A DNA stretch of 64,000 nt from Verrucomicrobiota bacterium (GTDB taxonomy: Bacteria; Verrucomicrobiota; Verrucomicrobiia; CAIQCK01), in NCBI GenBank assembly GCA_026397915.1, contig JAPLTX010000056.1:1-64000 (forward strand). Reading direction: 5' to 3'. The notes below the pieces were generated by a model, which searched no databases, was not told the DNA's origin, and saw only the letters and a program-made list of their open reading frames with translations. Positions 22,967-52,633 of the stretch are shown piece by piece (position 1 is the stretch's first letter; every line of letters begins with the position of its first letter). A program made the translations under genes and the position numbers.

Positions 22967-25717
22967 TCAATACGCTTGCGAAGCGGCAGCGAGTTTTCCA
23001 CGCGGTGCCTGCTTCGCCGGTGCGATTCTGACGTTGTCCACGTAGAACACCGTCTTCTCCGTCGCCCCGCTGATGAAACCAAACCACTGGAGCCGCTGGA
23101 AGTCTTTGTGGCCGAATGGCAGGCTGGCGAAACTCTTCGCCTCGCCGCCGCGCGGCTTCACCGTCAGGTCGTAGCTGCCGGTGGCACCGCGCCCCACGGC
23201 GAACTTTGCCTCGATGTGAACCCACTGGCCCAACGGCAGCGTCATCAGCGTCTGCTTGCCCGCCATCAACTCTCCGGCGGCCGACACGCGCAGGCTCGGC
23301 CCAACCCGATACGGCGAGCTGGCGTCGCGGCACTCGATCGTCGGCAGCGCGCCTTTCTCCACGCGCAGGTCGAACGACACCAGCAGCGTGCCGCGGCTGA
23401 AGTTGAACTTGCTGTAGTAGAGATGAGGCTGCCACGTCAGCGCCAAGCCGGCTGCGTCCACGAATTTCACACTGCGCCGGCCTGACGTGGCCGTCTCGTC
23501 GGTGACGGCAAGTTGGCCGGGAGCGTCCGCGCCGGAGAGCGTGCATTTCTCCGGTCGGCTGCCCACCGGCGTCTTCTCAAAGTCATCCTCGATGGAGGTG
23601 ACCTCTTTCCAAACTGCAAACTCTGTCGGCGGACGTTTGATCTTCTTTGGCAGCGCCACCCAGCTCTTGTCGCCGACGAGGCCGACGGTGCTGGTGTCAA
23701 TCGGCTTGAATCCGAGCTTGAGCGCGGGCGAGTCGGGCCGCAGCCGGAAGTCGCGCTTCGCGACGCTGACGAACTTCGGGTCGGCGATGATCGAACTCTT
23801 GTCCTGCGCCGTGTCCTGCCGCCACTCGTCGAGCATCGCGCCGGCGAATGTCGGCTCGCCGCCTGCGCGCCAATAGACGTTGCGATCCATCTGGTAGTTT
23901 TTATTGCCCCAGTTGCCGCCGAGCAGCGGGCCTTTATCCTGATAAACGATGTTGCCCTCGAACTTGAACGAGCAGTGCTCCTCCTGCCGCGAACGGATGA
24001 TCTGCGGCTCGGCGGCGAGCGCGAAGATGTTGTTCCGCACGATGTTCTCCTTGCCGTAGTGCTGATGGAAACCGCCCGTCTTGATCAGATAGACGACGTT
24101 GTTCTCCAACACGATGTCCGTGCTTCCCTCGTCGGTGTAAAGGCCCCAGCCGCCATAGCTGTAGCTGAGCACGTCGTGGATGACGTTGTTTCGCAGCACC
24201 GAGCCGGGCTGCGTGCCGAGCGTGTAGATGCCGCCCATGTCGCTCAACACGCCCTTGCCGATGTGATGGATGTGATTGAACTCCGCGACGTTCCCGCGAC
24301 CTTCGTGCGGCCCGTAACCCCACGTCCAGCCGATGGACATGCCGGAGTAGTAGAAGTCGCAGATTTCGTTGTGCGAGACGAGGTTGTCCGCGCTCTGGCC
24401 GATCCAGACGCCGATGCCCGCGTGGAACACATGCCCGCCGTCGTGGATGAAACAGTTGCGGACGACGTTGCCGCGGGTGCGCACCGGCTCGGCGGTCGGC
24501 AGGTCGCCGCCGCGCGCGTATTCGCCGAGCCGCACGCCGCCGGCGCCGAGGTCGTGGATGTGGCACTGCTCGATGCGGTTGCCGCGGCAGCCGCGTGCGA
24601 AGTTGATGCCATATTGGCCGACGTGCGCAATTTCACAGCGTTCGAGGACGCAATCGAGCGCGCCGTTGGCGGAGATCGCCGCGTCGAGGAATGTCACCGC
24701 CGCCTGACCATCAGCTGGCTTGTCGCGCGGAATCTCCCAGTCTCCGTGCTGGAACGACAGCCCGACGAGCCGCACGCCACGGACGAACTTGCCCTTGTCT
24801 GGATCGCCCGCGAACCGCACCAGCGTCATCAACGCCGGCGCGACCACCTCGGCCTTCCGCATGTCCTCGCCCGGCCTCGGCCAGTAGCTCAGCACGCCCG
24901 TCTTGCGATCGAGATGCCACTCGCCCGGCGAGTCGAGCGCTTCGCGGAAGTTCTCGACGTAGTAACGCTGCTCCTTCTCCCAATAACTCATCGGCCAACC
25001 GCTCGGCTGGACAAACCGCACCGTGTGCGCCTGCTCATCGAGCGCAGCGATGTGATGCCACGACGCCGTCCACGCATGGAACGCGACGATGTTCACGTCG
25101 TCGAGGTTGCCCCAACGCTTCAGGTCGCCCTCCTTGAACTTGAACCCCGCCTTCATCTCCGGCGTCCACTTCTTCCGGTCGCGCACGAGCGGAATCAGCG
25201 GTCCATCGGTGCGTAGGTAGCCGTCGTTCGGCGTCCGCGCCCGCGTCGCGCGCCGGCCATTGACGAAGAGCTGATGGAAATACCACTTCCCCGCCGCCAC
25301 GTCCGCGATCTGCGCCGTCCAAAGTTTCCCCTCGCCTTTCTTCCAGCCCGTGATTACGCGCCCGCCGCTGAACACCGGCCGCTCGCCTGGCGCGGCGGCA
25401 TAAACCACATCCGAATCCTCCGGCCCGAACGTGAGTGTCTCCATCAACCGATACGTGCCACCGCGGACAACAACTGACTTCTGACCTCTGACCTCTGACC
25501 TCTGGCCTCTGGTCGCGTCTCTCGCCCGCGCAATCGTCGCAAACGGTCCGTCGCTCTTCTCCTTGTTGGGCGCAGCAAGCTTGCCGCTCCACTGGTCGTT
25601 GCCGTCCGTGGCGACGTAGAAGCTCGCCGCAGGCAACGCTGGCGCGGCCGATGCCGCCACAGTTCCTATGATGAGAGCGCAAACGAAGCCGGCTGATTTG
25701 TGAAGAATGGTTTTCAT
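22967..25717 (-). CDS. Exported right-handed parallel beta-helix protein
   Basis: A 916-residue secreted protein. The signal peptide (KTILHKSAGFVCALIIGTVAASA) fixes the start at 25717. Residues 35-110 carry FYVATDGNDQWSGKLAAPN, the typical lead-in to pectate-lyase-like beta-helices. The central region has many short strand repeats (NRIEQCHIHDLG, NVVRNCFIHDGG, NLVSHNEICDFYYSG). The last about 250 residues form a LamG/CBM-like sandwich (SVKFVDAAGLALTW). It probably binds or cleaves acidic polysaccharide. A heptanucleotide tandem repeat is embedded near residues 69-82 (see 25474-25512). It is divergent from the giant kinase gene. Confidence 0.85.
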   Translation of the reverse strand: MKTILHKSAGFVCALIIGTVAASAAPALPAASFYVATDGNDQWSGKLAAPNKEKSDGPFATIARARDATRGQRSEVRGQKSVVVRGGTYRLMETLTFGPEDSDVVYAAAPGERPVFSGGRVITGWKKGEGKLWTAQIADVAAGKWYFHQLFVNGRRATRARTPNDGYLRTDGPLIPLVRDRKKWTPEMKAGFKFKEGDLKRWGNLDDVNIVAFHAWTASWHHIAALDEQAHTVRFVQPSGWPMSYWEKEQRYYVENFREALDSPGEWHLDRKTGVLSYWPRPGEDMRKAEVVAPALMTLVRFAGDPDKGKFVRGVRLVGLSFQHGDWEIPRDKPADGQAAVTFLDAAISANGALDCVLERCEIAHVGQYGINFARGCRGNRIEQCHIHDLGAGGVRLGEYARGGDLPTAEPVRTRGNVVRNCFIHDGGHVFHAGIGVWIGQSADNLVSHNEICDFYYSGMSIGWTWGYGPHEGRGNVAEFNHIHHIGKGVLSDMGGIYTLGTQPGSVLRNNVIHDVLSYSYGGWGLYTDEGSTDIVLENNVVYLIKTGGFHQHYGKENIVRNNIFALAAEPQIIRSRQEEHCSFKFEGNIVYQDKGPLLGGNWGNKNYQMDRNVYWRAGGEPTFAGAMLDEWRQDTAQDKSSIIADPKFVSVAKRDFRLRPDSPALKLGFKPIDTSTVGLVGDKSWVALPKKIKRPPTEFAVWKEVTSIEDDFEKTPVGSRPEKCTLSGADAPGQLAVTDETATSGRRSVKFVDAAGLALTWQPHLYYSKFNFSRGTLLVSFDLRVEKGALPTIECRDASSPYRVGPSLRVSAAGELMAGKQTLMTLPLGQWVHIEAKFAVGRGATGSYDLTVKPRGGEAKSFASLPFGHKDFQRLQWFGFISGATEKTVFYVDNVRIAPAKQAPRGKLAAASQAY
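25474..25512. repeat. Heptanucleotide tandem repeat (CTGACCT)n inside the beta-helix gene
   Basis: About five and a half units (CTGACTT, CTGACCT x3, CTGGCCT, then a partial CTGGTC) run in tandem. The stretch is translated in frame as part of the beta-helix protein (RGQRSEVRGQKS) in a loop before the conserved VVRGGTY. It resembles the short tandemly repeated repetitive (STRR) sequences known from cyanobacteria. Confidence 0.8.
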
Positions 25718-25744
25718 GGTTTGCAGAAGATGCGATTGCAATGC

Positions 25745-25773
25745 TGGCTACCAGCCGCACGCGGCTGCGTCAA
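25745..25773 (-). promoter_or_regulatory. Candidate promoter with operator-like palindrome for the beta-helix gene
   Basis: On the minus strand TTGACG (25773-25768) and TAGCCA (25750-25745) are 17 bp apart. The spacer is almost entirely a palindrome, CAGCCGC-AC-GCGGCTG (25752-25767), a position suited to a repressor or a spacer-bending regulator. Confidence 0.4.
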
Positions 25774-25820
25774 TCACGGAATTCCCGTCCAACGCCCCGT
25801 TTTGCGTCCCGTTTCGCGCC

Positions 25821-25848
25821 TTGACCCTCAACCGTTGCGGTCTATACT
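25821..25848 (+). promoter_or_regulatory. Sigma70 promoter for the giant kinase gene
   Basis: TTGACC (25821-25826), a 16-bp spacer and TATACT (25843-25848) form a near-consensus promoter. GGAGG at 25861 and ATG at 25874 follow at good distances. Confidence 0.65.
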
Positions 25849-25873
25849 GCCGCCGACTCCGGAGGACGTTCTA

Positions 25874-28800
25874 ATGACAGATTTGGTCGGCCAGACGCTC
25901 GGTGGCTACGCGGTTTTGGAACTGCTGGGCAAAGGTGGCATGGGGGCCGTGTTCAAGGCCCGTCAGCCGGTGCTCGACCGTATCGTCGCGCTCAAAGTCA
26001 TCACCTCACGCGCCGCCGAAGATCCAGCTTACATTGCCCGCTTCCGTCAGGAAGCCAAGGCAGCCGCGCAACTCAACCATCCCAACATCGTCCAGGTCCA
26101 CGCCGCTGGCGAAGACCGGGGCATCCACTTCATTGTCGAGGAATTCGTCGAGGGCGAGAACCTGCAAGACCGCCTCTCGCGCGAAGGCCACATGGACCCG
26201 CAGGAGGCGCTGGCGGTTTGCGTGTTCGTGGCCGACGGGCTGAAGTATGCCTGGGACGAGGCCCGGATCATCCACCGCGACATCAAGCCGGCGAATATCT
26301 TCCTCTCGAACAAAGGCGCGGTGAAAGTGGGCGACCTTGGTCTGGCCAAGAGCGTCGGGGCCGAGGGCGCTTCCGCGCTGACGCAATCGGGCATGACCGT
26401 CGGCACGCCCTACTATTGCAGCCCGGAACAGACCCGCGCCGACAAAGAAATAGATTTCCGTTCCGACATCTACAGCCTTGGCTGCACGCTCTACCACATG
26501 CTCAGCGGCAAAAAGCCTTACGAAGGCGCGCCGAACGAATCGCCCATGTCGGTGATGATCAAGCAGGCGACCGCCCCGCCGCCGGCCATCTTGCAGGTGT
26601 TGCCGGATTGTCCGTCGCAGGTGGTGATGTTGCTGAACAAGATGCTGGCGAAACATCCCAGCGCCCGGCACGCGAGCTACGACGTGTTGATCGCCGACCT
26701 GCGGCGGCTGCATGACCTCTTGGGCCAGCCGCAAGCCAACGCGCCGGTCAGCTCGGCGCTGCACGCCGGCACCGTCGCGCAGAAGCGGAAGCCGGTGGTG
26801 ATCTACGGTGGAATCGCTGCGGCTGTCGCGACGGTGGCTGTGATCGGCCTGCTGGTCTGGTCCCCGTGGAAGGAACGGGGAGCGTCGGAGCGTGAAGCGT
26901 CGGGCGTGGCACCCGTCGTGGAACCGAAGCCGGGTTTGGAGTCCCGCCTTCAGGCGGAATCCGCGCCGCCACAACCGGCTAAAGCCGGGACTCCAAACCC
27001 CGAAGCGCCGACTCCGAAACCACCGGAGAAAAAGCAGGAAGCCATTGCTGAAGCTACAAAGGCGGCCAAAATGCCCGCGCTCCCAGCCACCGACTCCGCA
27101 ATCCAAACTCCAAAATCGAAAATCCAAAATCCCGTTGACTCCGCCTTCCTCGCCGCCGTCGCCGCGCTCGATCCCGAAGACCAGGTCTCGCGCGTCATGG
27201 ACAAGCTGCTGCTGCTCAACCCCAAGTTCGACGGCAAGCAGAGTCACAAGATCGAGAACGGCAAAGTCACCGAGCTGACCTTCTCCGCCGCCGAAGTCAG
27301 CGACATCTCGCCACTGAAGGCGCTGCCGCATTTGCAGAGCCTCACCATCGGCGGCACGGCGCAGAAACGGACGCTGAGCGACCTCTCGCCGTTGAAAGGA
27401 CTCAAACTCACCAAGCTCGCCATCCACTCCACCGCCGTCAGCGACTTGACGCCGCTCGCGGGGATGCCGCTGGCCTCGCTGCAAATCAGCAACACGCGGG
27501 TGAGCGATCTCTTGCCGCTGCGGGGCGCGCCGTTGACGTGGCTCAGTTGCGTGGATGCGCCTGTGAAAGATCTCGCCCCGCTGGCCGGCGCGCCGCTGGC
27601 CACGCTCTGGTGCGGCGGCTCGCAGGTGACGGACTTCTCGCCGCTTAAGGCCGTGCCGCTGAAGGAACTCTCCTGCGACTTCCAGCCCGAGCGCGACAAG
27701 GTGGCGTTGTTCGCCATCAAGACCTTGGAGAGCATCAACGGCAAACCAGCGGCGGATTTCTGGAAGGAAGTCGGCGCGCCCGAAGACCCGTGGTTCAAGC
27801 AAGTCGCCGCCATGCCCGCCGAGCAGCAACTCGCCGCCGTGATGGCGAAGCTGAAGGAGTTGAATCCCGGTTTCGACGGCAAGGAAACGCACAAGATCGA
27901 ACGGACTGTGACAGGGGCCACCGCCGATTCCGCACTCCGCACTCCGCAATCCGCATTTTCCATCACCGAACTCTCCTTCTCCACCGTCGCCGTGACGAAC
28001 ATCGTCCCTGTCCGCGCGCTCACGGCCCTGAAGAAGCTGACGCTGCTGCCGTGGGCCGCAGGTGGAGCGCGACCGCCGGGCGCGCTTTCCGATCTCTCTC
28101 CATTGCAGGGCCTGCCTCTGACCTTCCTCGCCTGCGGCAACACCCGGGTCGCCGACCTCACTCCGCTCAAAGGAATGCCGCTGACCATCCTCAGCGTGGA
28201 CAACACGCCCGTCAGCGATCTCTCGCCGCTCGCGGGAATGCCGCTGACGGTCCTCTGGTGCAACAGCACCAAGGTGACCGACCTCTCGCCGCTGGCCGGC
28301 GCGCCGCTGACGGAACTGCGTTGCGACGTGAAACCGGAGCACGCCCCGCTGCTCGCCTCCATCCCCACGTTGCGGAAGATCAACGACATCGCCCCCGCCG
28401 CGCTCTGGATGCGGATGCACATCAAGCCGCCCGTGCCGTCCGTTGTAGGCCGGGTGCCCTCACCCGGCGCAACGTCCGGCGCAACGACAACGACGACGCC
28501 CGGTCAGGGGACCGGGCCTACAATGAAACCCGGCACCGCCGCCCAAACCGGCCAGCCGTTGATGACCTCCATCGGCATGGAGTTGCTCTACATCTCGCCC
28601 GGCGAGTTCCTCCTCGGCAGCACGCCGGAGGAACGCGCGTGGGCAGTGGCCAATGGCGTGAAACTGGAGGGCGTGAAGTGCGAAGGCGAGCAACCGCGCA
28701 AGGCGACGATCAAGCATGGCTTTTGGCTGGGCAAGACCGAGGTGACGGTGGGCCAATGGAAGCTGTTCGTGGCGGCGACGGGCTATGTGACCGACGGCGA

Positions 28801-30439
28801 GAAGAAGGGCGAGTCTTATGCGGCGCAAGGGCCGGGCAAGCCGATGGGGTTGGTGAAAGGCGCGAATTGGAAAGACCCGAACTTTGGCTTTAGGCCGAAA
28901 GACAATCATCCGGTATGTTGCATCAGTTGGAACGATGCGGTGGCATTTTGCGAGTGGCTCAACGAGCGGGAGGCGAAGGCAGGTCGCCTACCGCCGGGCT
29001 TCAAGGTGCGGCTGCCGACGGAGGCGGAGTGGGAGTATGCGTGCCGTGCGGGCAAGCAGACGAAGTTCTGGTGGGGCGAGACTAAGGAAGGCAGCGAGAA
29101 TCGGCTGAACAGGGCGGGGACGGTGGACGGTTTCGAGTTTGTCGCGCCGGTGGATCACTACGGCGCGCGCGGTCGGAACAAGTTTGGATTGGCGGACATG
29201 CTGGGCAACGTGGCGGAGTGGTGCTTGGATGCGTTCGATCCAACTGGAGCGCACGAGCAATGCAACGCTGCAACCAACTCGTCTGGGAACGTGGTGCGCG
29301 GTAGCGCGTTCAACGGCATCCTCGGCTACGTTCGGTGTGCCCTCCGCCAGCCTTGCATGGGATCGTTTAGCCACATCGGGTTTCGCGTAGCGATTGGGAT
29401 GGAGCAAGGTGACGCGAGGCCAACGCCTTCACCTGCGCAGACCACGCCTGCCACTGTAGCGCAGCCGCCTGTTGCGACACCAACAACGACCACGCCGCCT
29501 GTCGTGACGCCCACGCCTCCACGCACTGCCGCTCTTACGCTCCCACGCTCCACGTCCGCCGCCGCCGCCCAAACCGGCCAGCCGTTGATGACCTCCATTG
29601 GCATGGAGTTGCTCTACATCCCGCCCGGCGAGTTCTTCCTCGGCAGCACGCCGGAGGAACGGGCGTGGGCACTGGCCAACGGTGGCACTGCCGCCTACGT
29701 CAAGTGGGAAGGCGACCAGCCGCGGAAGGCGGCGATCAAGCAAGGTTTCTGGCTCGGCAGAACCGAGGTGACGGTGGGCCAGTGGAAGCAGTTCGTGGCC
29801 GCTACCGGCTACGTCACTGACGGCGAGAAGAAGGGCGAGTCTTATGCGCCGCAAGGGTCGGATAAGCCGTTTGTTTTTGTGAAAGGGGCAAGTTGGAAAG
29901 ATCCAAATTTTGGCTTCAAGCTGAAGGACAATCATCCCGCTTGCTGCATCAGTTGGAACGATGCGGTGGCGTTCTGCGAGTGGCTGAACGAGCGGGAAGC
30001 GAAGGCTGGACGGCTGCCGCCCGGGTTCAAGGTGCGGCTGCCGACGGAAGCGGAGTGGGAGTATGCCTGCCGGGCCGGCAAACAGACGAAGTTCTGGTGG
30101 GGCGACACGAAGGAAGGCGGCGAAGGACGGCTGAATTGGAACGTCAAAGGCGACGGCTTCGAGTTTATCTCGCCGGTGGACCATTACGGGGCGCGAGGTC
30201 GAAACAAGTTTGGACTGGCGGACATGTTGGGCAACGTGCAGGAGTGGTGTTTGGACGAGACCGATCTGGCGGGTGCGCATGAAGAACCTTACAAAGGCAA
30301 TTCGTTTGTGCGCGTGGTGCGGCGCGGCGCGTTCACCACCAACCCCGGTGACTCGCGCTGCGCCTCTCGCGATTCCCACACTCCGTCCGGCTCGTTTAGT
30401 AACCTCGGGTTCCGGGTGGCGGTGGGGATGGAGCGTTGA
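25874..30439 (+). CDS. Membrane Ser/Thr kinase with two LRR-like modules and two FGE-fold domains
   Basis: A 1521-residue receptor-like kinase. Residues 1-290 are a complete PknB-type kinase: GKGGMG loop, Lys41 in ALKV, HRDIKPAN (His134-Asp136), DLG in place of DFG, and CSPEQ. A membrane helix spans about 308-329. The outer part has a Pro/Ala linker, an LRR-like module (about 420-610, blades of 23 residues such as DLTPLAGMPLASL), a second copy (about 640-842), then two FGE-sulfatase-fold domains (892-1178 and 1236-1521). Both FGE domains retain fold motifs (LPTEAEWEYACRAG, GLADMLGNV-EWCLD, LGFRVA) but lack the catalytic Cys pair, so they likely bind ligand. Repeat DNA sits at the domain junctions. 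The start at 25874 has GGAGG upstream. Confidence 0.85.
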   Translation: MTDLVGQTLGGYAVLELLGKGGMGAVFKARQPVLDRIVALKVITSRAAEDPAYIARFRQEAKAAAQLNHPNIVQVHAAGEDRGIHFIVEEFVEGENLQDRLSREGHMDPQEALAVCVFVADGLKYAWDEARIIHRDIKPANIFLSNKGAVKVGDLGLAKSVGAEGASALTQSGMTVGTPYYCSPEQTRADKEIDFRSDIYSLGCTLYHMLSGKKPYEGAPNESPMSVMIKQATAPPPAILQVLPDCPSQVVMLLNKMLAKHPSARHASYDVLIADLRRLHDLLGQPQANAPVSSALHAGTVAQKRKPVVIYGGIAAAVATVAVIGLLVWSPWKERGASEREASGVAPVVEPKPGLESRLQAESAPPQPAKAGTPNPEAPTPKPPEKKQEAIAEATKAAKMPALPATDSAIQTPKSKIQNPVDSAFLAAVAALDPEDQVSRVMDKLLLLNPKFDGKQSHKIENGKVTELTFSAAEVSDISPLKALPHLQSLTIGGTAQKRTLSDLSPLKGLKLTKLAIHSTAVSDLTPLAGMPLASLQISNTRVSDLLPLRGAPLTWLSCVDAPVKDLAPLAGAPLATLWCGGSQVTDFSPLKAVPLKELSCDFQPERDKVALFAIKTLESINGKPAADFWKEVGAPEDPWFKQVAAMPAEQQLAAVMAKLKELNPGFDGKETHKIERTVTGATADSALRTPQSAFSITELSFSTVAVTNIVPVRALTALKKLTLLPWAAGGARPPGALSDLSPLQGLPLTFLACGNTRVADLTPLKGMPLTILSVDNTPVSDLSPLAGMPLTVLWCNSTKVTDLSPLAGAPLTELRCDVKPEHAPLLASIPTLRKINDIAPAALWMRMHIKPPVPSVVGRVPSPGATSGATTTTTPGQGTGPTMKPGTAAQTGQPLMTSIGMELLYISPGEFLLGSTPEERAWAVANGVKLEGVKCEGEQPRKATIKHGFWLGKTEVTVGQWKLFVAATGYVTDGEKKGESYAAQGPGKPMGLVKGANWKDPNFGFRPKDNHPVCCISWNDAVAFCEWLNEREAKAGRLPPGFKVRLPTEAEWEYACRAGKQTKFWWGETKEGSENRLNRAGTVDGFEFVAPVDHYGARGRNKFGLADMLGNVAEWCLDAFDPTGAHEQCNAATNSSGNVVRGSAFNGILGYVRCALRQPCMGSFSHIGFRVAIGMEQGDARPTPSPAQTTPATVAQPPVATPTTTTPPVVTPTPPRTAALTLPRSTSAAAAQTGQPLMTSIGMELLYIPPGEFFLGSTPEERAWALANGGTAAYVKWEGDQPRKAAIKQGFWLGRTEVTVGQWKQFVAATGYVTDGEKKGESYAPQGSDKPFVFVKGASWKDPNFGFKLKDNHPACCISWNDAVAFCEWLNEREAKAGRLPPGFKVRLPTEAEWEYACRAGKQTKFWWGDTKEGGEGRLNWNVKGDGFEFISPVDHYGARGRNKFGLADMLGNVQEWCLDETDLAGAHEEPYKGNSFVRVVRRGAFTTNPGDSRCASRDSHTPSGSFSNLGFRVAVGMER
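26934..26998. repeat. Inverted REP-like pair inside the kinase gene (linker)
   Basis: Two divergent hairpins, GGAGTCCCGCCTTCAGGCGG and, on the other strand, GGAGTCCCGGCTTTAGCCGG, are bounded by GTTTGGAG and CTCCAAAC. They encode part of the linker after the membrane helix (residues 354-375). The frame is kept open. Confidence 0.75.
27100..27134. repeat. Heptanucleotide repeat (AATCCAA)n just before LRR module 1
   Basis: The units AATCCAA, ACTCCAA, AATCGAA and AATCCAA, plus a degenerate last unit, are translated in frame as a short polar linker (QTPKSKIQNP). Confidence 0.75.
27927..27961. repeat. Heptanucleotide repeat (ACTCCGC)n inside LRR module 2
   Basis: The units ATTCCGC, ACTCCGC x2, AATCCGC and one degenerate unit are translated as SALRTPQSAF. 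They interrupt a module that is otherwise parallel to LRR module 1, where the corresponding point (after HKIE) is much shorter. Confidence 0.75.
28445..28521. repeat. Inverted pair of GTAG-headed REPs between LRR module 2 and FGE domain 1
   Basis: GTAG-GCCGGGTG-CCCT-CACCCGGC (28445-28468) is mirrored by a minus-strand copy, GTAG-GCCCGGTC-CCCT-GACCGGGC (28521-28498). The pair forms a BIME-like unit translated as the linker around residues 858-883. Confidence 0.85.
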
Positions 30440-41782: not shown

Positions 41783-43483
41783 CTACGACGGCAGGAAAAC
41801 ACGGAAGGTGGCGCCTTTGCCGGGGGCGCTGTCCACCTCGATGCGTCCGTGATGCGCGTCAATGATTTTGCGCACGACGGCGAGGCCAAGGCCGGTGCCG
41901 GTGGACTTGGTAGTTAGAAATCCCTCGAAGAGCCGCTGCTGCACTTCGTCCGTCATGCCGACACCGGTGTCGGTGATGCTCACGCACACGCCCGGCTCAC
42001 GCGCCTTCGTGGCAATGGTGAGCGTGCCTCCCTGTGGCATCGCCTGCGCGGCGTTCAGGATGAGGTTGAGCGCGGCTTGCTCAATTTGCGTGCGGTCCAG
42101 CGACGCGCACGGCAGGCCGGCCGCCGGCTGCCACTGAAGCGTGATGCCCTGTTGCACGAGCTTGTGGCGCACCAACAACAGGACGTCGTCGAAGAGCGCG
42201 TTCACGTCGGTTGGTTTCAGATCCGGCTCGCTGCGCCGTGCGAAGGTCAGTGTTTGGTCCATGATGCGGTTCATCTGGTCCATCTTCTGGCTGATGATCG
42301 CGGCATCCTTGGCGCGCGGGTCGTCGTCGGGAAACCGGAGATCAAGCGAGTGGAACAGCATCTTGACGACCGTGAGCGGGTTGCGGATTTCGTGCGCGAT
42401 CTCCGCAGCGAGCAGGCCGAGCGCGCTGAGCTGTTCGTTCTGGCGGAGCTGCTCTTCGACATCCACGACCTTTTCGTAAAGCTGCGCCTTGCGCACCGCC
42501 ACGGAGCCGAGGCCGGCCAGCGCCTTCAGCAACAGGATTTCGTCGTTGGAGAAACGGTGCGGTTCCCCGGTATAGACGGACAGCACGCCGATCGCCTCGT
42601 CGCCGGAAATGAGTGGCACGCTTAACAGTGACACCAACCCTTCCTGACGCGCCAGCTCGGTGTGCCGATACTGGTCACTTTCCTGGACGTTGGGAATGGT
42701 TAAGTGCCGCTTGTGGCGCGCAACGACGCCCACAAGGCAGTCGGCCACCTTGAGGTTCGGCCGATGCACATAATCCTCACTCGCGCCGTCGCTCGCTTTC
42801 AGTTCCAACTCTTCGCGATCCGGCGTCAGCAACAGCACAGAGCAAAGGCGCGCCTGCATCAACCGCCGCGCCTCGCGCACGATGTGCCGGAGCACTTCCT
42901 CCAATGTGATCGGCAGCAGGATGTCCTGGCCAATGGTGATAAGCGTCTCAAGCTGCGTGGCGCGCTGGCGGAGCTGGCGGATAAGCCATGCGTTGTGCAA
43001 CACGCGCGCAGCCTGCACCGCCATCGCCAGCAGCAACTCCTCGTCGGCAGCGCTGAACGCATCGCGCCGGTCGCTGTCCACGTTGAGCACACCCTGGACC
43101 TGGCCTTCAAACTCCAGCGGCACGGCCAGTTCGCTGCGCACACCCTCGCGCACCGCGACGTAGCGCCGCTCACAGGTCACGTCGCCAACGCGCAACGGCC
43201 GGGCGTGTTCAGCGACCCAACCGGTGATGCCTTCGCCGAGACGCAATTTAACCTGCATGATCTTGGGACCGAGACCGAATGAGTCCTCGATGTCCAACCG
43301 GCCGGTATCAGGATTGAGGATGACCACCGAACCGCTGTCGGCCTTGGTGACGCGCACGGCCTCGCGCAAGACAAGGCTGACCACCTGGCGCGGGTCGAGC
43401 GAGGTGTTGAGCGCCGTGCTGATGTTGTGAAGCGCCTGCAACCGCTCAAACCGCTCGCGCAAATCTGAATCGTTGGCTTTCAT
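41783..43483 (-). CDS. GAF-GAF histidine kinase
   Basis: A soluble sensor kinase of 566 residues. Two GAF domains (about 20-165 and 175-335) precede a HisKA domain with His364 in AAEIAHEIRNPLTVV and a HATPase_c domain with N (LNLILNAAQAMPQGG), G1 (DTGVGM) and G2 (GTGLGLAVV) boxes. With no membrane segment, it probably senses a small molecule or redox state in the cytoplasm. No response regulator is adjacent, but the lone receiver at 22410-22856 is a candidate partner. The start at 43483 begins just before the first coiled segment. It is divergent from the FHA gene. Confidence 0.9.
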   Translation of the reverse strand: MKANDSDLRERFERLQALHNISTALNTSLDPRQVVSLVLREAVRVTKADSGSVVILNPDTGRLDIEDSFGLGPKIMQVKLRLGEGITGWVAEHARPLRVGDVTCERRYVAVREGVRSELAVPLEFEGQVQGVLNVDSDRRDAFSAADEELLLAMAVQAARVLHNAWLIRQLRQRATQLETLITIGQDILLPITLEEVLRHIVREARRLMQARLCSVLLLTPDREELELKASDGASEDYVHRPNLKVADCLVGVVARHKRHLTIPNVQESDQYRHTELARQEGLVSLLSVPLISGDEAIGVLSVYTGEPHRFSNDEILLLKALAGLGSVAVRKAQLYEKVVDVEEQLRQNEQLSALGLLAAEIAHEIRNPLTVVKMLFHSLDLRFPDDDPRAKDAAIISQKMDQMNRIMDQTLTFARRSEPDLKPTDVNALFDDVLLLVRHKLVQQGITLQWQPAAGLPCASLDRTQIEQAALNLILNAAQAMPQGGTLTIATKAREPGVCVSITDTGVGMTDEVQQRLFEGFLTTKSTGTGLGLAVVRKIIDAHHGRIEVDSAPGKGATFRVFLPS

Positions 43484-43626
43484 TCCGCATTGCGTTCCCG
43501 AAACAGACCCGATCTGGCGGGCCGCACGGAAACAGACATGAGGGTTTGTAGTAGAGCCGGGCTTCAAAGTCCACTGGGGATTGGCAGTCCGGCGCGTCAG
43601 TAGCGAAAAGTAGCGGCAGTGACGGA

Positions 43627-43655
43627 TTGACAGGGTTCGAGGCTCTCCGTAAAGT
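43627..43655 (+). promoter_or_regulatory. Sigma70 promoter for the FHA/pseudokinase operon
   Basis: TTGACA (43627-43632), exactly 17 bp and TAAAGT (43650-43655) form a strong promoter, 27 bp before the ATG at 43683. It lies in the 199-bp divergent gap with the histidine kinase. Confidence 0.65.
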
Positions 43656-43682: not shown

Positions 43683-44234
43683 ATGTATCACCTCATCATC
43701 GAGAATGGCACCCGCGAAGGCGAGTGCATCCGGCCCAAAGGCGTGGAACTGACCATCGGCCGCGAACCGGGCAATGTCTTGCGGCTGGTGGACGACGGCG
43801 TTTCCGGCCACCATTGCGTTATACGGCTCACGCGGCGAGGCATCACCGTGTGCGACTGCAATTCCACCAACGGCGTCTATGTCAACGGCAAGCCCATTCA
43901 TGAAGAAACCCGACTCCCCAGCGGCTGCCTCATTGAAGTGGGCGCGGTGGCAATGCGGTTCGAGTTTCTCCACAACGTGGACAGCCACAAGCTGCGCACC
44001 ACCGTGATCTTCTGGATCGCGGCCGCCATAGTGGCGCTAACGTTCTCAATCCAACTGGCCGGCATCGGCATTGCGTTCTGGACGCGGCACCACCGGTTCA
44101 CACCGGAAGAAACCGCGGCGGTCCTGAAGTGGTTTCCCTTGCCGCCCGATCTGCCCGGCGCGCTGCTGCCGGCCGCCGCGAAACCCAACCCAGCCGCGCC
44201 TACCGCGCCGGCGTCAACCCAACTGAGGTTCTGA
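43683..44234 (+). CDS. FHA-domain membrane protein
   Basis: A 183-residue protein with a complete forkhead-associated domain (GREPGNVLRLVDDGVSGHHCVIR, then NSTNGVYVNGKPI), which binds phosphothreonine peptides, followed by one membrane helix (VIFWIAAAIVALTFSIQLAGIGI) and a short Ala/Pro tail. It should face the cytoplasm and read phosphorylation, perhaps by the kinase at 25874-30439. Its TGA overlaps the ATG of the next gene, so both are made together and may form one complex. The start may also be at 43671. Confidence 0.88.
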   Translation: MYHLIIENGTREGECIRPKGVELTIGREPGNVLRLVDDGVSGHHCVIRLTRRGITVCDCNSTNGVYVNGKPIHEETRLPSGCLIEVGAVAMRFEFLHNVDSHKLRTTVIFWIAAAIVALTFSIQLAGIGIAFWTRHHRFTPEETAAVLKWFPLPPDLPGALLPAAAKPNPAAPTAPASTQLRF

Positions 44235-47131
44235 TGGCTACCGTCCTTCTCATCGTGGATCACGACCGCTCGGTCGTGGACGCCCTCACCACACAACTGG
44301 CTGCGCCGCCGTTTGTCGGCCGGTTCCACGTCTGCGGCGCAACAACGCTCGAAGAAGCTCTCGGCGCTTTCGAAGGCCAACCTGTGGACGTGCTCGTCAG
44401 CGACCTTAACGTCGCCGGCACGCAACTCGCTGAATTCGCCCGCTCACGCTTTCCCGATCTCAAAGTCGTTTTCACCGCCGACGCGCCGTCGGCCGAAATC
44501 AAAAGCCAGGTGCGCGCCGCCAGCGGTCTTGGTCTGGTCGTGAAGCCCCTCCGCGCAGAGAACGTCATCGCATTACTTTCCGTCGCGCCCGAACCGGCCG
44601 CGCCGCCGCCACCGCTGGAACCGGCGCCACTGCAAGAGACGGCAACTCCAGCCGTAGCCGCGCCACCGCCGCCGCCGCCGCCCGCCACGCCGCGCGTCGT
44701 CCCGACCACGCCAAAAGTTGCGACCCCACTACCGGCTCCTGCCGTCGTGGCGAAAGCGCCCGCTGTCACAGCCGCGCCAAAGGTCGCCGCAACGCCGCTG
44801 CCGCAACCACGCGTGCCAACCGTCGCCAAAGTTTCCGCGCCGCCTGCGGTCGCGGCCGCGCCGCAAGCAACGCCGCCACAGTCGCGACCAACTGTCGTGG
44901 CCAAAGTGCCCACTGTCATGTCCGCGCCGAAGGTTGCCACAGCGCCGCCACCACCACAGCCGCGCGCGCCCACCGTCGTCGCCAAACTTCCCGCGCCGCC
45001 GCCCGCGCCCAAAGCAGTGCCGCCGCAGCCGGGTCCCACGGTCGTGGCCAAAGTGCCCACTGTCACGTCCGCGCCGAAAGTCGCCGCAACGCCGCCTTCA
45101 CCACCACCGCAGCCGCGCGTGCCAACCGTCGTCACCAAACCTCCCGCGCCACCCGCCGTCGCAACCGCGCCGAAACAGCCGACGGTGAAACCGCAAGTTT
45201 CAGCGGCCCCACTGCCGCAAACCGCCACAACAACCGGCCCGCGCGTTGTGGCAAGAGTGCCAACCGTCGCGGCCACACCGGTGGTGAAGCCGCAGGTGGC
45301 CGTGCCGCAGGTCGCTGCGCCAACAGCGCTTCCGCCCGAACCGCCGCCAGTCGAAGCACCACCCGCCGTCGAACCAGTGCCGCCGGCGAGCGTGCCAACG
45401 CCCACGCCGCCGGAACTGCGCGCCGTGCCAGCTCAGCACGAAGAACCGCCACCGCCGGTTCCACAGGAGTTCATTCCGCCGCCTCCGCCGCCGCGCCGCG
45501 CAAGCAACCCGATGATTGGCGCGGTGCTCGGCCCTTACGCCATCAAGCGCGTGTTGGGCCACGGCAACTGGGGCAGCGTCTTCGAGGCAGTGCAGGAGCA
45601 GGTAAACCGCACTGTTGCAATCAAGGTGCTGGAGCCGGAGTTGCACGAAGATCCGGCAAAGGTCGCGCAGTTCTCATCGCTGGCAAGCCGGATGGCCAAC
45701 CGGCGTCACAACAATCTCGTGGCGGTTTACGAAGCGGGCGAGTTTGGCGGTGTGCATTACTACGCGCGCGAGTTCATCGAAGGACGCACGTTGCAGAAAA
45801 TCGTCGAGTCGCCACAGAAACTCAGCCCGGCACACACCTTGCGAGTGTTGATGGGCGTGGCGCGAGCGCTGTTGTATCTGTTGCACCACCACATCGCGAT
45901 CGGCCCGGTGCCGGGGAAAAACATTCTGGTGGACACCATCAACGGCGAGCCACACGTCTGCGGTTTTTCATTCATGGACGGCACCAGCGGCGAACTGGGC
46001 AGCTCGGCTGCCACGGAGATGCCACAACTGGCGCAGATGTTGTGGAGCGCTCTGGATCCGGCCGCGCCGCAATCGCAGCAGGTCTATGGGCTGCTGAGGC
46101 GGTTGCTGGCCCCGGATCATCCGTTCCCGTCGCTGGAGCATCTGCTCTCCGAGGCGGAGGCTTTGGAGCGCACATTTCACAAACCGGTGGTCAAGAGGGC
46201 GAAGTCAGCTAGCGCGCCGAGACCCGCCATCAAGCCAATCATGCCGGGGCAAACACCGCTGGGCCAGCGTCTTCAAAAGAAGCACTATGTCATGGGCGGC
46301 GCTGTCGCAGGCGCGGTGGTGTTGGCGGTAGCCGGGTGGTTTGTGTTCCAGCAGTTCACTAAGCTGCCGCCGGCGGACGTGGAGACGTTTATCCAGGTGC
46401 CGGCGGGCGAGTTCATCTACCAAAGCGGTGAGAAGAAGACGACGAAGGAGTTCTGGATCAGCAAATACGAAGTCACCATTGGCCAATACCGCAAGTTCTG
46501 GACGCGGGTGAAGGAGAAAGGCGACAAGAACTACGCGCACCCGAGGCAGCCGAAGAACGTTGACACCACGCATACACCGGTGAATTGGGATTGGATGCAG
46601 GCCGCTTGCGAGGCCGGCCAGCAGCTTGGCGACGGCCACCCCATTACGGACGACTACCCAATTTTTAACGTGACCTACTGGGACGCGTGGGCCTACGCGA
46701 AGTGGGCCGGCGGCCGGCTGCCAACCCAAGAGGAATGGGAGAAGGCCGCGCGCGGCACCGACGGGCGGCTCTATCCGTGGGGCAACAGCCTCGACGACCC
46801 CAAGCGCGCCAACACTGGCAAGGATTACGACGACATTAATCGCGGCCGGATTGATGGTTACCTCCAGTGGGCGCCGGTCCACGCGCATCCGGGCGACGCG
46901 AGTCCATTCGGGGTGCGCGACATGGCGGCCAACGTCTGCGAGTGGACTGACTCGTGGGTGCCAATGCTGAACAACCCAAAGGAGCAAGTGCCCATCATCC
47001 GCGGCGGTTCATGGGCCGACACCGAAGTGCGCGTTACGCAACGCCAGAGCAACGTGATGCCCCATCAAGGGCGCAACGATCTCGGCTTCCGCATCATCAA
47101 GGACACCGCGCCACCGGTGGTGGGAAAGTAA
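44234..47131 (+). CDS. Receiver-like, pseudokinase, membrane helix, FGE-fold protein
   Basis: A 965-residue multidomain protein. Residues 1-120 are a receiver-like domain with a phospho-acceptor-like Asp in VLVSDLN. A long Pro/Ala/Val linker follows (about 125-425), with a 49-residue repeat unit. The kinase-like domain (about 430-660) keeps the glycine loop (GHGNWGSVF) and VAIK, but its HRD is replaced by an IAIGPVPGKN segment and its DFG by GFS, so it should be a pseudokinase. A membrane helix (about 684-708) leads to an FGE-fold domain (716-962) lacking the catalytic Cys pair. It is coupled to the FHA gene by a 1-base TGATG overlap. Confidence 0.85.
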   Translation: MATVLLIVDHDRSVVDALTTQLAAPPFVGRFHVCGATTLEEALGAFEGQPVDVLVSDLNVAGTQLAEFARSRFPDLKVVFTADAPSAEIKSQVRAASGLGLVVKPLRAENVIALLSVAPEPAAPPPPLEPAPLQETATPAVAAPPPPPPPATPRVVPTTPKVATPLPAPAVVAKAPAVTAAPKVAATPLPQPRVPTVAKVSAPPAVAAAPQATPPQSRPTVVAKVPTVMSAPKVATAPPPPQPRAPTVVAKLPAPPPAPKAVPPQPGPTVVAKVPTVTSAPKVAATPPSPPPQPRVPTVVTKPPAPPAVATAPKQPTVKPQVSAAPLPQTATTTGPRVVARVPTVAATPVVKPQVAVPQVAAPTALPPEPPPVEAPPAVEPVPPASVPTPTPPELRAVPAQHEEPPPPVPQEFIPPPPPPRRASNPMIGAVLGPYAIKRVLGHGNWGSVFEAVQEQVNRTVAIKVLEPELHEDPAKVAQFSSLASRMANRRHNNLVAVYEAGEFGGVHYYAREFIEGRTLQKIVESPQKLSPAHTLRVLMGVARALLYLLHHHIAIGPVPGKNILVDTINGEPHVCGFSFMDGTSGELGSSAATEMPQLAQMLWSALDPAAPQSQQVYGLLRRLLAPDHPFPSLEHLLSEAEALERTFHKPVVKRAKSASAPRPAIKPIMPGQTPLGQRLQKKHYVMGGAVAGAVVLAVAGWFVFQQFTKLPPADVETFIQVPAGEFIYQSGEKKTTKEFWISKYEVTIGQYRKFWTRVKEKGDKNYAHPRQPKNVDTTHTPVNWDWMQAACEAGQQLGDGHPITDDYPIFNVTYWDAWAYAKWAGGRLPTQEEWEKAARGTDGRLYPWGNSLDDPKRANTGKDYDDINRGRIDGYLQWAPVHAHPGDASPFGVRDMAANVCEWTDSWVPMLNNPKEQVPIIRGGSWADTEVRVTQRQSNVMPHQGRNDLGFRIIKDTAPPVVGK

Positions 47132-48874: not shown

Positions 48875-51800
48875 TTACGGGTTCGTGTTCAGCCAGCGCC
48901 GCACTTCGGGCCCCTTCGGGTCGTCGGGGCGCAACTGGAGGAATTGCGCGTAGTGTGCGCGCGCTTTGTCCTTTGTGGAGGGCTGCCGGGAGTAAATCTG
49001 GCCAAGCCCCAAGTGCGCCATCGCGTGGTTCGGGGACTCTTGGAGAAGCGCCTCAAACTGCATTGCTGCCTGCTCGTAGGCGCCCCCCTGCAGCAACGCG
49101 AGCGCGTCCTGAAAGCGTTCGTCAACCGTGCGCTGATTGCCGCTCGGCGCCACAGCGGTGCTCGCTACCGTGCGGGCAAGTTGCGGCGCCGCTGCGGTGA
49201 GTGTGTTCACAAAGTCGGCGGGGAGCTTGCCGCCCAATTTTGCGCAAGCTTCCACATCGTCCCACGCTTTGTCGTAGGCCCGGATGTTGTAGTAGGCAAT
49301 GCCGCGGTTCTTGTAGGCGGCGGCATTGTCGGGCTTCAATTCAATGAAGCGAGTAAAGTCCGGGATCGCTTGGTCGAACTTGCCGGCCTTGGCGAAGGCT
49401 TGGGCGCGATTGTAATAGGCGCCGGCCAGGGAGGCGTCGCGTTGGAGTGCGTCGTTGAAATCCCACATGGCGCGTTCCATCTCACCGCGCGCGGTCCAAG
49501 CCACGCCACGGTTGTTGTAGGCCACCGCCAGTTTGGGATTGAGCAAAATCGCCTGGTTGTAATCGGCGATGCCGTGCTCGGAGTCGCCTTGCTGGCAGTA
49601 AGCATCGCCGCGGTAAACGTAAGCGTTGGCGTTCTTCGGATCAAGTTTGACGGCCTTCGTGAACCAACTAACTTGTTCCGCCGCTGTCGTGGCGGCCATG
49701 CCTTCAGAGAGGGCTTGGTCAAGAGGGGAAAGACTGGACGGCGCGGCGGCGGCGCCCGCTTTCTTCGCCACATCAGGCGAGGAACTCTGGGCCTTCACAA
49801 CCCTACTCACCGCCGACACAAAGTCGGGATCAACCTGGGCACCCAATTGTTGAGCCTTCTGGACGTCAGCCAAGGCTTCGGCATACATGTGCTGGTCGGC
49901 GTAAAGCAGCGCGCGATTCTGATAAGCCTCGGTGTAGTCGGCCTTGAGTTCGATGGCGCGAGTGAGGTCCTGCATGGCACCCTTGGTATCGCCATTTTTG
50001 ACGTTGGCCTGACCGCGGGCGAAATAGATTTCCGCATTCTGGGGTTGAAGCTTGAGAAGTTTGCCGAAGTCATAGATCGCGCCAACGTAGTTGCCTTTGG
50101 CATAATAAAGATCGCCACGAGCGGCGTAGGCTGTCGCGCAGTTCGGATCAAGCTCGATCGCCTTCGAGTAATACTCGATTTTCTGGGGCGTGCCGGCGGT
50201 CTGGGCTTCAGCCAGCATCTGCTCCGCGGAGGAGGAGGAAGGGGAGGACTTCGCGGGTTGCTCTTCCACGGGTTTGACGGCGACGGTTTGCAGGGCGACG
50301 AGGTCGGAACTTCCAATTTGCCTGTCCTGTTTCGGAAGCGACGCCGGCTCAGGCGCGGCGGCCGAAGGCTGGCCCATGGCTTTAGACAAAGCAGTGAGAA
50401 ACTCGGGCCGGACCTGGCCGCCGAGTTTCTGGCAGGTTTGCGTGTCGGCCAGGGCTTTGTCGTAGGCGCGCAGATCGTAGTAGGCCATGGCACGGTCGTA
50501 GTAGGTGTCGGCACTGCGAGGATTCAGGTCTATGGACTTATTGAAATCGCGGAGGGCTTGTTCTGAATCGCCACGTTTGCCATAGGCGTTGCCGCGCAGA
50601 GCATAGGCTCGCGCATCGGCGGGCTGGAGATCGAGGTATTTGGTGCAGTCCAAGATCACGCCGTCGGTGTCACCCTTGCCAAGATAAGAAGCGGCGCGTT
50701 CGAGATAAGCCGGAGCAAATTGACGGTCGGCATCTATCGCCCTCGAATAACAGGCGATCTGCTCGTCGAGGGTGATGGACGCTTTGCCTTGTTTGAAAGC
50801 GTCGGCCGCTTGCGGATTGGTGGCGCTCGGAACCTGTTGAGATGCCGCCGCAACCTGCGCGGGAGCCTCGCTGGCAATCGGTTTCTGAACCGGCACCTCC
50901 GCTTTGGGAGGCGTCGGGGAGGCGACCGCAACCGATTTGGGCTGGCTGGCTGCTCTGGAGAGCGCAGCTTCAAATTCGGGTTGCACACGGCCGCCAAAAC
51001 GACGGCACATCATCACGTCAGCCCAAGCCTGATCATAGGAGCGTTTCTGATAATAGGCCATCGCCCGGCCTTGATAAGCGTCAGGATCGTCCGGCTTCAA
51101 CTCGATGGCCTTGGAGAAATCTGCTATGGCACGGTCGAAATTCTGCTGAAATACATTGGCGTCGGCGCGGTTGTAGTAGGCCCCTGCCAGTGTCGGGTCC
51201 AGTTGGATCGCTTTGTCAAAGTCCTGCATGGCACGCGCGTGGTCGCCTTTGCGCACATAAGCGACGCCGCGGTTGTTGTAAGGTGTGCCGGTGCTGGGCC
51301 GCAACTCGATCGAACGGGAATAATCCGCAATGGCAAGGTCGTAATCGCCCTTCATCATGTAGGCATCGCCACGAGCCGTGAAGGCAGCGGCGGATTCAGG
51401 CGCCACCTGGACGGCCGTGGTCAGCAGTTTGACCTGCTCATCAAGGTTGTTGTTCTCCCTGGCCTTCGCAATAAGTCCCGCTACGTCCACGGCGGGTGCC
51501 GCGGGCATGACAGGTTCAACTTTCGCCGGTTTCGGCAGCTCCGGAATTGCCACCACTGGAGGTGCGGCAACTTTTGGAGCCACCGGTTCGCTACGCCTCG
51601 GCACGACCGCGTCAATAGTCGCGGTCAGGTCCGCAGGCGGAGCCTTGATTTCAGCCGTCGGTTTGGGTGGCTTGGCGGGTTCGATAACGGGCTTCTCAAT
51701 CATCGGCGTCGTCTCGAACGTCTTGAACGTCGGCGTGGGAACGGTGGCGGCTGGCGGCTCTGTCCGCCTGATGGCCGGTGATTCGACGGGCGTGAGAACG

Positions 51801-52633
51801 CGTATCTCACGTTGCGGAACCGTCAGCACGTCGGCAGGAATCCCGCCGGAGAGCCTGCCCATCTCGCTCACCAACCCATGGTCCACTCTGCCGCCAAGTC
51901 GCTCGCTCGCCTTCACGTCAGCCACCACTTGCTCCATGGTGGTCTTCAAGAAGCCCCGTTTGGCTTCCGCCCGCTTCGCGTAAAGCTCGGCGTCGGTCGG
52001 CCTCAGTTCGATGGCTTTGTTGTAGTCATCAATCGCGCGGCCATAGTCGTTCTTGCAGCAATACGCAAGGGCGCGATTGGCGTAATCGTCCGCACTGGAG
52101 GGCTTCATCTCTATTGCTTTGTTGAAATCGGCAACGGCGCTGTCGTAATTACCCCTGGCGACCGAGGCCAAACCGCGGCAACTGTAAGGCAGCGAATCAC
52201 TCCGATCCAACTCGATGGCCTTGGCAAAATCCATCGCAGCCCGGTCGTCCTGGCGCTGGACCGCATAACCGTAACCGCGCCACGCATAGGCCTTCCCATA
52301 GTCTGGCTTCAGTTCGATGGCCCGGCTGTAGTCTGCGATCGCCGCGTCAATCTCGCTTCGGCGGCGGTAGGCATCTGCGCGACCGATGTAAGCTAGCGCA
52401 AACTCCGTCTTTAGCTTCACGTCAATGATCCGCGTGAACTCCTCAACCTGGTCGTTCGCGCTGGTTGAAACAGGCACTCGAATGCGAAGATCCTTTGGAT
52501 CGGAATCCGATGAGGCACACGCAGCTTGCGGGAGCACAACGTTTAACCCTCCCCATGCTGCTATGACAGCGCAAATGTTGATGATCATTCGCGCTCTCAA
52601 TCCCTTATTCATAATCCAAACATTCTTGTTCAC
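48875..52633 (-). CDS. Giant exported TPR-repeat protein with super-repeats
   Basis: A 1252-residue protein with a signal sequence (MIINICAVIAAWGGLNVVLPQAACA) and about 20 TPR units such as AYYNRADANVFQQNFDRAIADFSKAIELKPDD. On top of the TPRs, a longer block ending in ADV-x2-C-x2-LGG-x-V-x-PEF-x2-ALS recurs at about residues 245, 545, 737, 929 and 1132, with Pro-rich linkers between. The start is GTG at 52633 with GGAGG 9 bases upstream. It is probably a periplasmic scaffold. It is divergent from kdsD. Confidence 0.88.
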   Translation of the reverse strand: MNKNVWIMNKGLRARMIINICAVIAAWGGLNVVLPQAACASSDSDPKDLRIRVPVSTSANDQVEEFTRIIDVKLKTEFALAYIGRADAYRRRSEIDAAIADYSRAIELKPDYGKAYAWRGYGYAVQRQDDRAAMDFAKAIELDRSDSLPYSCRGLASVARGNYDSAVADFNKAIEMKPSSADDYANRALAYCCKNDYGRAIDDYNKAIELRPTDAELYAKRAEAKRGFLKTTMEQVVADVKASERLGGRVDHGLVSEMGRLSGGIPADVLTVPQREIRVLTPVESPAIRRTEPPAATVPTPTFKTFETTPMIEKPVIEPAKPPKPTAEIKAPPADLTATIDAVVPRRSEPVAPKVAAPPVVAIPELPKPAKVEPVMPAAPAVDVAGLIAKARENNNLDEQVKLLTTAVQVAPESAAAFTARGDAYMMKGDYDLAIADYSRSIELRPSTGTPYNNRGVAYVRKGDHARAMQDFDKAIQLDPTLAGAYYNRADANVFQQNFDRAIADFSKAIELKPDDPDAYQGRAMAYYQKRSYDQAWADVMMCRRFGGRVQPEFEAALSRAASQPKSVAVASPTPPKAEVPVQKPIASEAPAQVAAASQQVPSATNPQAADAFKQGKASITLDEQIACYSRAIDADRQFAPAYLERAASYLGKGDTDGVILDCTKYLDLQPADARAYALRGNAYGKRGDSEQALRDFNKSIDLNPRSADTYYDRAMAYYDLRAYDKALADTQTCQKLGGQVRPEFLTALSKAMGQPSAAAPEPASLPKQDRQIGSSDLVALQTVAVKPVEEQPAKSSPSSSSAEQMLAEAQTAGTPQKIEYYSKAIELDPNCATAYAARGDLYYAKGNYVGAIYDFGKLLKLQPQNAEIYFARGQANVKNGDTKGAMQDLTRAIELKADYTEAYQNRALLYADQHMYAEALADVQKAQQLGAQVDPDFVSAVSRVVKAQSSSPDVAKKAGAAAAPSSLSPLDQALSEGMAATTAAEQVSWFTKAVKLDPKNANAYVYRGDAYCQQGDSEHGIADYNQAILLNPKLAVAYNNRGVAWTARGEMERAMWDFNDALQRDASLAGAYYNRAQAFAKAGKFDQAIPDFTRFIELKPDNAAAYKNRGIAYYNIRAYDKAWDDVEACAKLGGKLPADFVNTLTAAAPQLARTVASTAVAPSGNQRTVDERFQDALALLQGGAYEQAAMQFEALLQESPNHAMAHLGLGQIYSRQPSTKDKARAHYAQFLQLRPDDPKGPEVRRWLNTNP

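Follow-up and report, generated by a model that had tools for sequence, protein, structure and literature searches.

A paired membrane protein and receiver–pseudokinase–FGE protein, spread through a verrucomicrobial class, suggest an undescribed membrane scaffold

A pair of adjacent genes, widely conserved in a verrucomicrobial class, joins a single-pass membrane protein to a larger protein whose kinase-like and FGE-fold domains have lost their catalytic residues and, in the genomes compared, evolve under purifying selection. The class-wide spread of this pair suggests an undescribed membrane scaffold and not a conventional kinase pathway. Our reference copy lies in a 64,000-nucleotide stretch of Verrucomicrobiota contig JAPLTX010000056.1 (the window; Table 1), where the upstream protein carries an FHA domain (FHA-TM) and the downstream one, which we name RPF here, has 965 residues arranged as a receiver-like domain, a repeat linker, a pseudokinase, a membrane helix and an FGE-fold ectodomain. 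Our best explanation, to which we give an even chance, is a two-protein membrane-spanning scaffold that would work by docking, not catalysis, and would be FHA-gated in the window's lineage.

Table 1 Features of the gene pair and of its upstream region in the window
Feature	Position	Strand	Basis
Sigma-70-like promoter for the pair, TTGACA-N17-TAAAGT	43627..43655	+	Consensus scan, 10/12 matches
FHA-TM gene, 183 aa	43683..44234	+	Pfam FHA, E=3.7e-17
RPF gene, 965 aa	44234..47131	+	Receiver-like, linker, pseudokinase, TM and FGE-fold parts
Receiver-like domain, residues 1–118	44234..44587	+	Pfam Response_reg, E=6.9e-5
Pro/Ala/Val/Thr repeat linker, residues 119–420	44588..45493	+	Direct repeats
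Pseudokinase domain, residues 430–655	45521..46198	+	Pfam Pkinase, E=2.9e-12
RPF membrane helix, Lys-Lys-His just before	46280..46360	+	Sequence; same-place hydrophobic segment in relatives
FGE (SUMF1-like) fold ectodomain, residues 733–956	46430..47101	+	Pfam FGE-sulfatase, E=2.4e-41

The two genes are joined by a 1-base TGA/ATG overlap. An earlier note on this DNA had described the pair in these terms, and the open reading frames, the overlap and the domains are borne out by the reading-frame coordinates and Pfam matches. It had also placed a strong promoter before the pair, a claim upheld by the consensus match and by its recurrence in the upstream DNA of the four relatives compared: the TTGACA and TAAAGT hexamers stand unchanged before the FHA orthologues of G001, G002 and G003, and G004 reads TTGACA/TAGAGT. 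The scan found a single consensus promoter 5′ of the pair, where shuffled sequence would give 0.1. A divergently oriented gene next to the FHA gene (41783–43567) reads as a GAF-type histidine kinase; as the receiver's cognate kinase it was rejected, since it adjoins the pair in the window's genome and G002 but was not found there in G001 or G003. Downstream of the pair, a gene for a large TPR protein (48875–52633) occupies the same place in G001, G002 and G003.

The receiver-like domain of the window RPF scores below the Pfam cut-off (Response_reg, 23.4 bits against 30.2), which RPF relatives from G009, G088, G015 and G052 exceed. It keeps the phospho-Asp equivalent and the Lys, with the second acidic residue of the metal site changed to His. 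The linker contains direct repeats with a period of about 150 nt (44703–45160), and its composition and length differ among orthologues. Within the pseudokinase, HRDxxxxN reads IGPVPGKN, putting Pro at the catalytic Asp position, and DFG reads GFS, with Gly at the metal-binding Asp position; the C-lobe is shortened, and the glycine loop and β3 Lys (VAIK) are kept. The ectodomain has the FGE fold as judged by Pfam and is missing the active-site Cys pair, both as the earlier note had it. FGE-like domains belong to the CLec fold group, and the solved structure nearest in sequence to the window FGE domain is human SUMF2 (E=8.5e-22), which has the same fold; SUMF2 is a eukaryotic protein that lacks the catalytic Cys pair and is not known to have signalling domains. 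An AlphaFold model of the pseudokinase–FGE part, built on a three-row alignment, had a mean pLDDT of 35 and was set aside.

Using the pseudokinase–FGE (C-terminal) half of RPF as the query, we found relatives in 29 of the 93 genomes sampled from the class; in the phylum sample, the matches among the genomes listed all fall in the same class. The loss of HRD and DFG claimed for the window protein proves general, as both Asp residues are missing from every aligned copy (30/30), and none of the relatives found has a kinase-like domain that looks capable of catalysis. All 30 aligned copies also lack the FGE Cys pair. The β3 Lys is lost in eight families (f13, f16, f18, f21, f27, f29, f30 and f32) and kept in the window's family and in f2, f4, f5 and f10. 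At the receiver phospho-site, Asp is replaced by Glu in f4, f13, f16, f21, f27, f30 and f32 and by another non-Asp residue in f2, f10, f29 and G004 (the substitutes overall being Glu, Arg, Ser, Ala, Asn or Gln), the conserved Lys is often lost, and the RPF copies of f5 are devoid of a receiver; f18 and the f1 copies other than G004 keep the Asp. The three RPF signalling domains look enzymatically dead, most receivers being degenerate. Several RPFs have DUF4388, which we take to be the PATAN domain, between receiver and pseudokinase; no DUF4388 is among the Pfam matches of the window RPF.

Nearer to the window, each of the seven genomes compared from the order (the window's own, G000, among them) has an RPF orthologue or close paralogue. 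Conservation of the pair, which the earlier note had left to a search of other genomes, is confirmed in the family, where the FHA gene and its 1-base junction are kept in G001, G002, G003, G004 and G005, making six genomes with the window's. Compared with G001 and G002, the pseudokinase is the most constrained domain of the window RPF (dN/dS 0.10 and 0.09); compared with G003, its value of 0.20 is close to that of the FGE region (0.21), and FGE values of 0.17–0.29 denote purifying selection. Long coiled-coil paralogues in G003 and G006 retain the receiver-like, pseudokinase and FGE parts, and no FHA match lies beside them.

In 27 of 30 loci, the gene directly before RPF codes for a single-pass membrane protein, the exceptions being G083 and the two coiled-coil paralogues. 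This partner takes the form FHA-TM in the window's family, FHA-TM-β or TM-β in f5, and TM-TPR-β or TM-β in the remaining families, so that FHA is found on it in two families only. A profile built from FHA-less partners detects the domain at the C terminus of FHA proteins from f5 (E 8.6e-14 to 7e-9). A Gln, Glu or His is buried in the membrane helix of 41/44 partners, against 3/30 RPF helices, and this polar residue could mediate helix–helix contact. The partner β domain gives one match per genome in 55/93 genomes of the class and none in the window's family; by raw counts that ignore kinship, it is present in 21/22 RPF-bearing genomes outside that family and in 34/64 genomes without a detected RPF. 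What follows it varies. In f3 the partner β-domain gene again stands immediately upstream, here of a pseudokinase–FGE gene; in G010, G054 and G024 a pseudokinase gene without FGE comes next, in G045 a REC-DUF4388 gene alone, and in other genomes unrelated genes. These varieties imply that the FHA domain and the receiver are both optional parts. The claim of an FHA–RPF signalling pair stands in so far as the pair is real and conserved, but FHA does not define it; the FHA form is a lineage-specific version of a more broadly distributed membrane partner. Trypsin-like proteases, most with PDZ (HtrA type), adjoin the partner or lie a few kb from it in several families (L077 3224–4372, L084 5790–6965, L081 6990–8108, L082 9208–9948 and L091 7396–8874).

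The window FHA protein comprises an FHA domain (residues about 1–95), a membrane helix (about 108–134) and a short Pro/Ala tail. It is predicted to be membrane-anchored by its own helix, inside which a Gln is buried, and the residues of the putative phosphothreonine-binding motif (GR, SxxH and STNG) are kept in six genomes. The partner β domain is absent. With a helix-only partner profile it ranks 13th of 2738 open reading frames (E=1.7), which alone is not significant; its proposed membership of the partner family draws on gene position, the FHA-TM arrangement common with f5 and the buried helix residue.

We propose that RPF would hold its receiver-like domain and pseudokinase in the cytoplasm and a non-catalytic FGE head in the periplasm, and that its single-pass upstream partner would contact it, maybe helix to helix. 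As the window's partner has FHA and is without the periplasmic TPR and β domains, docking there is probably phosphothreonine-gated, the phosphothreonine coming from one of the genome's active kinases. FHA–phosphothreonine binding would then most likely be a lineage-specific input to the scaffold. Neighbouring genes, among them the pilus-type genes of f2 and the tandem gene of G004 described below, point to an envelope machine as the client, none being singled out. A secreted family without a Pfam match, c4, usually has one match per genome (65/93 genomes of the class) and is encoded downstream of either RPF or the partner in f3, f9, f18, f26, f27 and f29; in the window's genus a c4 relative adjoins mreB (G000:C54:78739–79539; L099 5701–6537), which points to wall growth, not pili.

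A narrower form of the scaffold, in which the pair would place or control a machine of the type IV pilus kind, is unlikely, though the least so of the three alternatives. In four genomes of f2 a PilT-family ATPase gene precedes the partner (NCBIfam, 419 bits against a cut-off of 319), and in two genomes of f2 genes for a PilB-like ATPase and an MshEN protein come after RPF. The gene following the pair in G004 (L030 6582–9677) links a receiver and a CpaE/MinD-like region to an FGE head that shares about 53% identity with that of the window. Synechocystis PixE, a PATAN-CheY protein, reportedly binds PilB1, a pilus motor (PMC7690835). The DUF4388 of several RPFs, and the REC-DUF4388 gene standing alone after the partner in G045, fit a similar role. 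Against this, outside f2 neither the matches listed nor the loci examined show a T2SSE-type ATPase next to the pair, the window's own neighbourhood of the pair has no pilus genes, c4 in the window's genus points to mreB, and the DUF4388 argument assumes its identity with PATAN.

The earlier note had favoured a relay, in which the ectodomain detects a ligand, the signal passes through receiver and pseudokinase, and FHA reads phosphothreonine put on RPF by an active kinase. We consider this distinctly unlikely. It can draw on the FHA motif conserved in six genomes, on the many active kinases of the genome, on a linker rich in Thr in G000–G002 and on the precedent of PknB phosphorylating the MviN pseudokinase for FhaA (PMC12599244). 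However, the receiver phospho-site is degenerate in most relatives, which makes an Asp-phosphorylation relay unlikely as the conserved function, and the receiver part of the claim is not supported. The partner has no FHA in most families. Moreover, the threonine motifs of the linker are not conserved among the orthologues compared, G004 and G005 not keeping them, and because they vary no FHA ligand site was found. The relay gets less weight on all three counts.

An alternative that we rate as very improbable is that RPF has gained a new ATP-dependent activity despite its HRD and DFG losses, as SelO and SidJ do. The glycine loop kept in the window and the β3 Lys kept in its family and four others make nucleotide binding or an unusual activity conceivable there, but the eight families that lose this Lys keep the architecture, and the DFG Asp is found in none of the 30 copies. 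Two further readings were rejected: a diversity-generating retroelement, as no reverse transcriptase match (PF00078, E<=0.001) was found in the 94% complete genome, and anti-phage defence, as PADLOC matches only kinase-domain stretches (PD-T4-6, MADS6 and similar) and nothing in the FHA protein or partner.

Among described systems, MviN–FhaA and EssB/YukC are closest in function and kinase–CLec fusions closest in architecture. In Mycobacterium tuberculosis, the membrane pseudokinase MviN, whose catalytic motifs are degraded, works together with the FHA protein FhaA (PMC12599244); a phosphorylated tail to which an FHA protein binds is a mark of MviN/ActPs3. RPF resembles this ActPs3-family protein in being a membrane pseudokinase paired with an FHA protein, but a receiver and an FGE head are missing from MviN, and the FHA protein described here is a membrane protein too, shares the operon and does not occur throughout the family. 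The published list gives ActPs3 members VALT (PMC12599244), whereas the window RPF has VAIK intact, so not all of its motifs are degraded. EssB/YukC of type VIIb secretion is a transmembrane pseudokinase that serves as a scaffold (PMC12599244); unlike RPF it has no receiver or FGE head, and neither the Pfam nor the NCBIfam matches of RPF include the EssB family. Cyanobacterial diversity-generating retroelements include a kinase domain fused to a CLec-type domain, with Hanks motifs and a diversified C-terminal region reported (PMC7517822), whereas the RPF FGE region is under purifying selection.

At least seven kinase–FGE proteins of the window's genome (loci L034–L038) also carry both domains in one protein; unlike in RPF, their HRD and DFG motifs are intact, and the kinase lies near the N terminus in six of seven. 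The window also encodes a large protein with intact HRD/DLG kinase motifs (25700–30439), the 25874 kinase that the earlier note put forward as a candidate, but those seven proteins have intact motifs as well. PATAN-CheY regulators such as PixE of Synechocystis combine a receiver with a PATAN-type domain, as do several RPF relatives, but RPF has in addition a pseudokinase, a membrane helix and an FGE head. The earlier note knew of no system with this architecture, and we found no such pair in the open-licence papers searched.

More tentatively, the pair may belong to a class-wide, modular verrucomicrobial scaffold in which a hallmark single-pass partner, its helix holding a buried polar residue, and a non-catalytic receiver/kinase/FGE protein encoded downstream would organise an envelope machine by docking alone; if true, it would represent a previously undescribed kind of system. 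A widely conserved operon would then keep a whole protein of signalling domains for its shape and not for its chemistry, and FHA, present in some lineages only, would be an added input to a partner of wider occurrence. The little-studied bacterial pseudokinases would gain a class-wide family together with a partner to which it is genetically linked.
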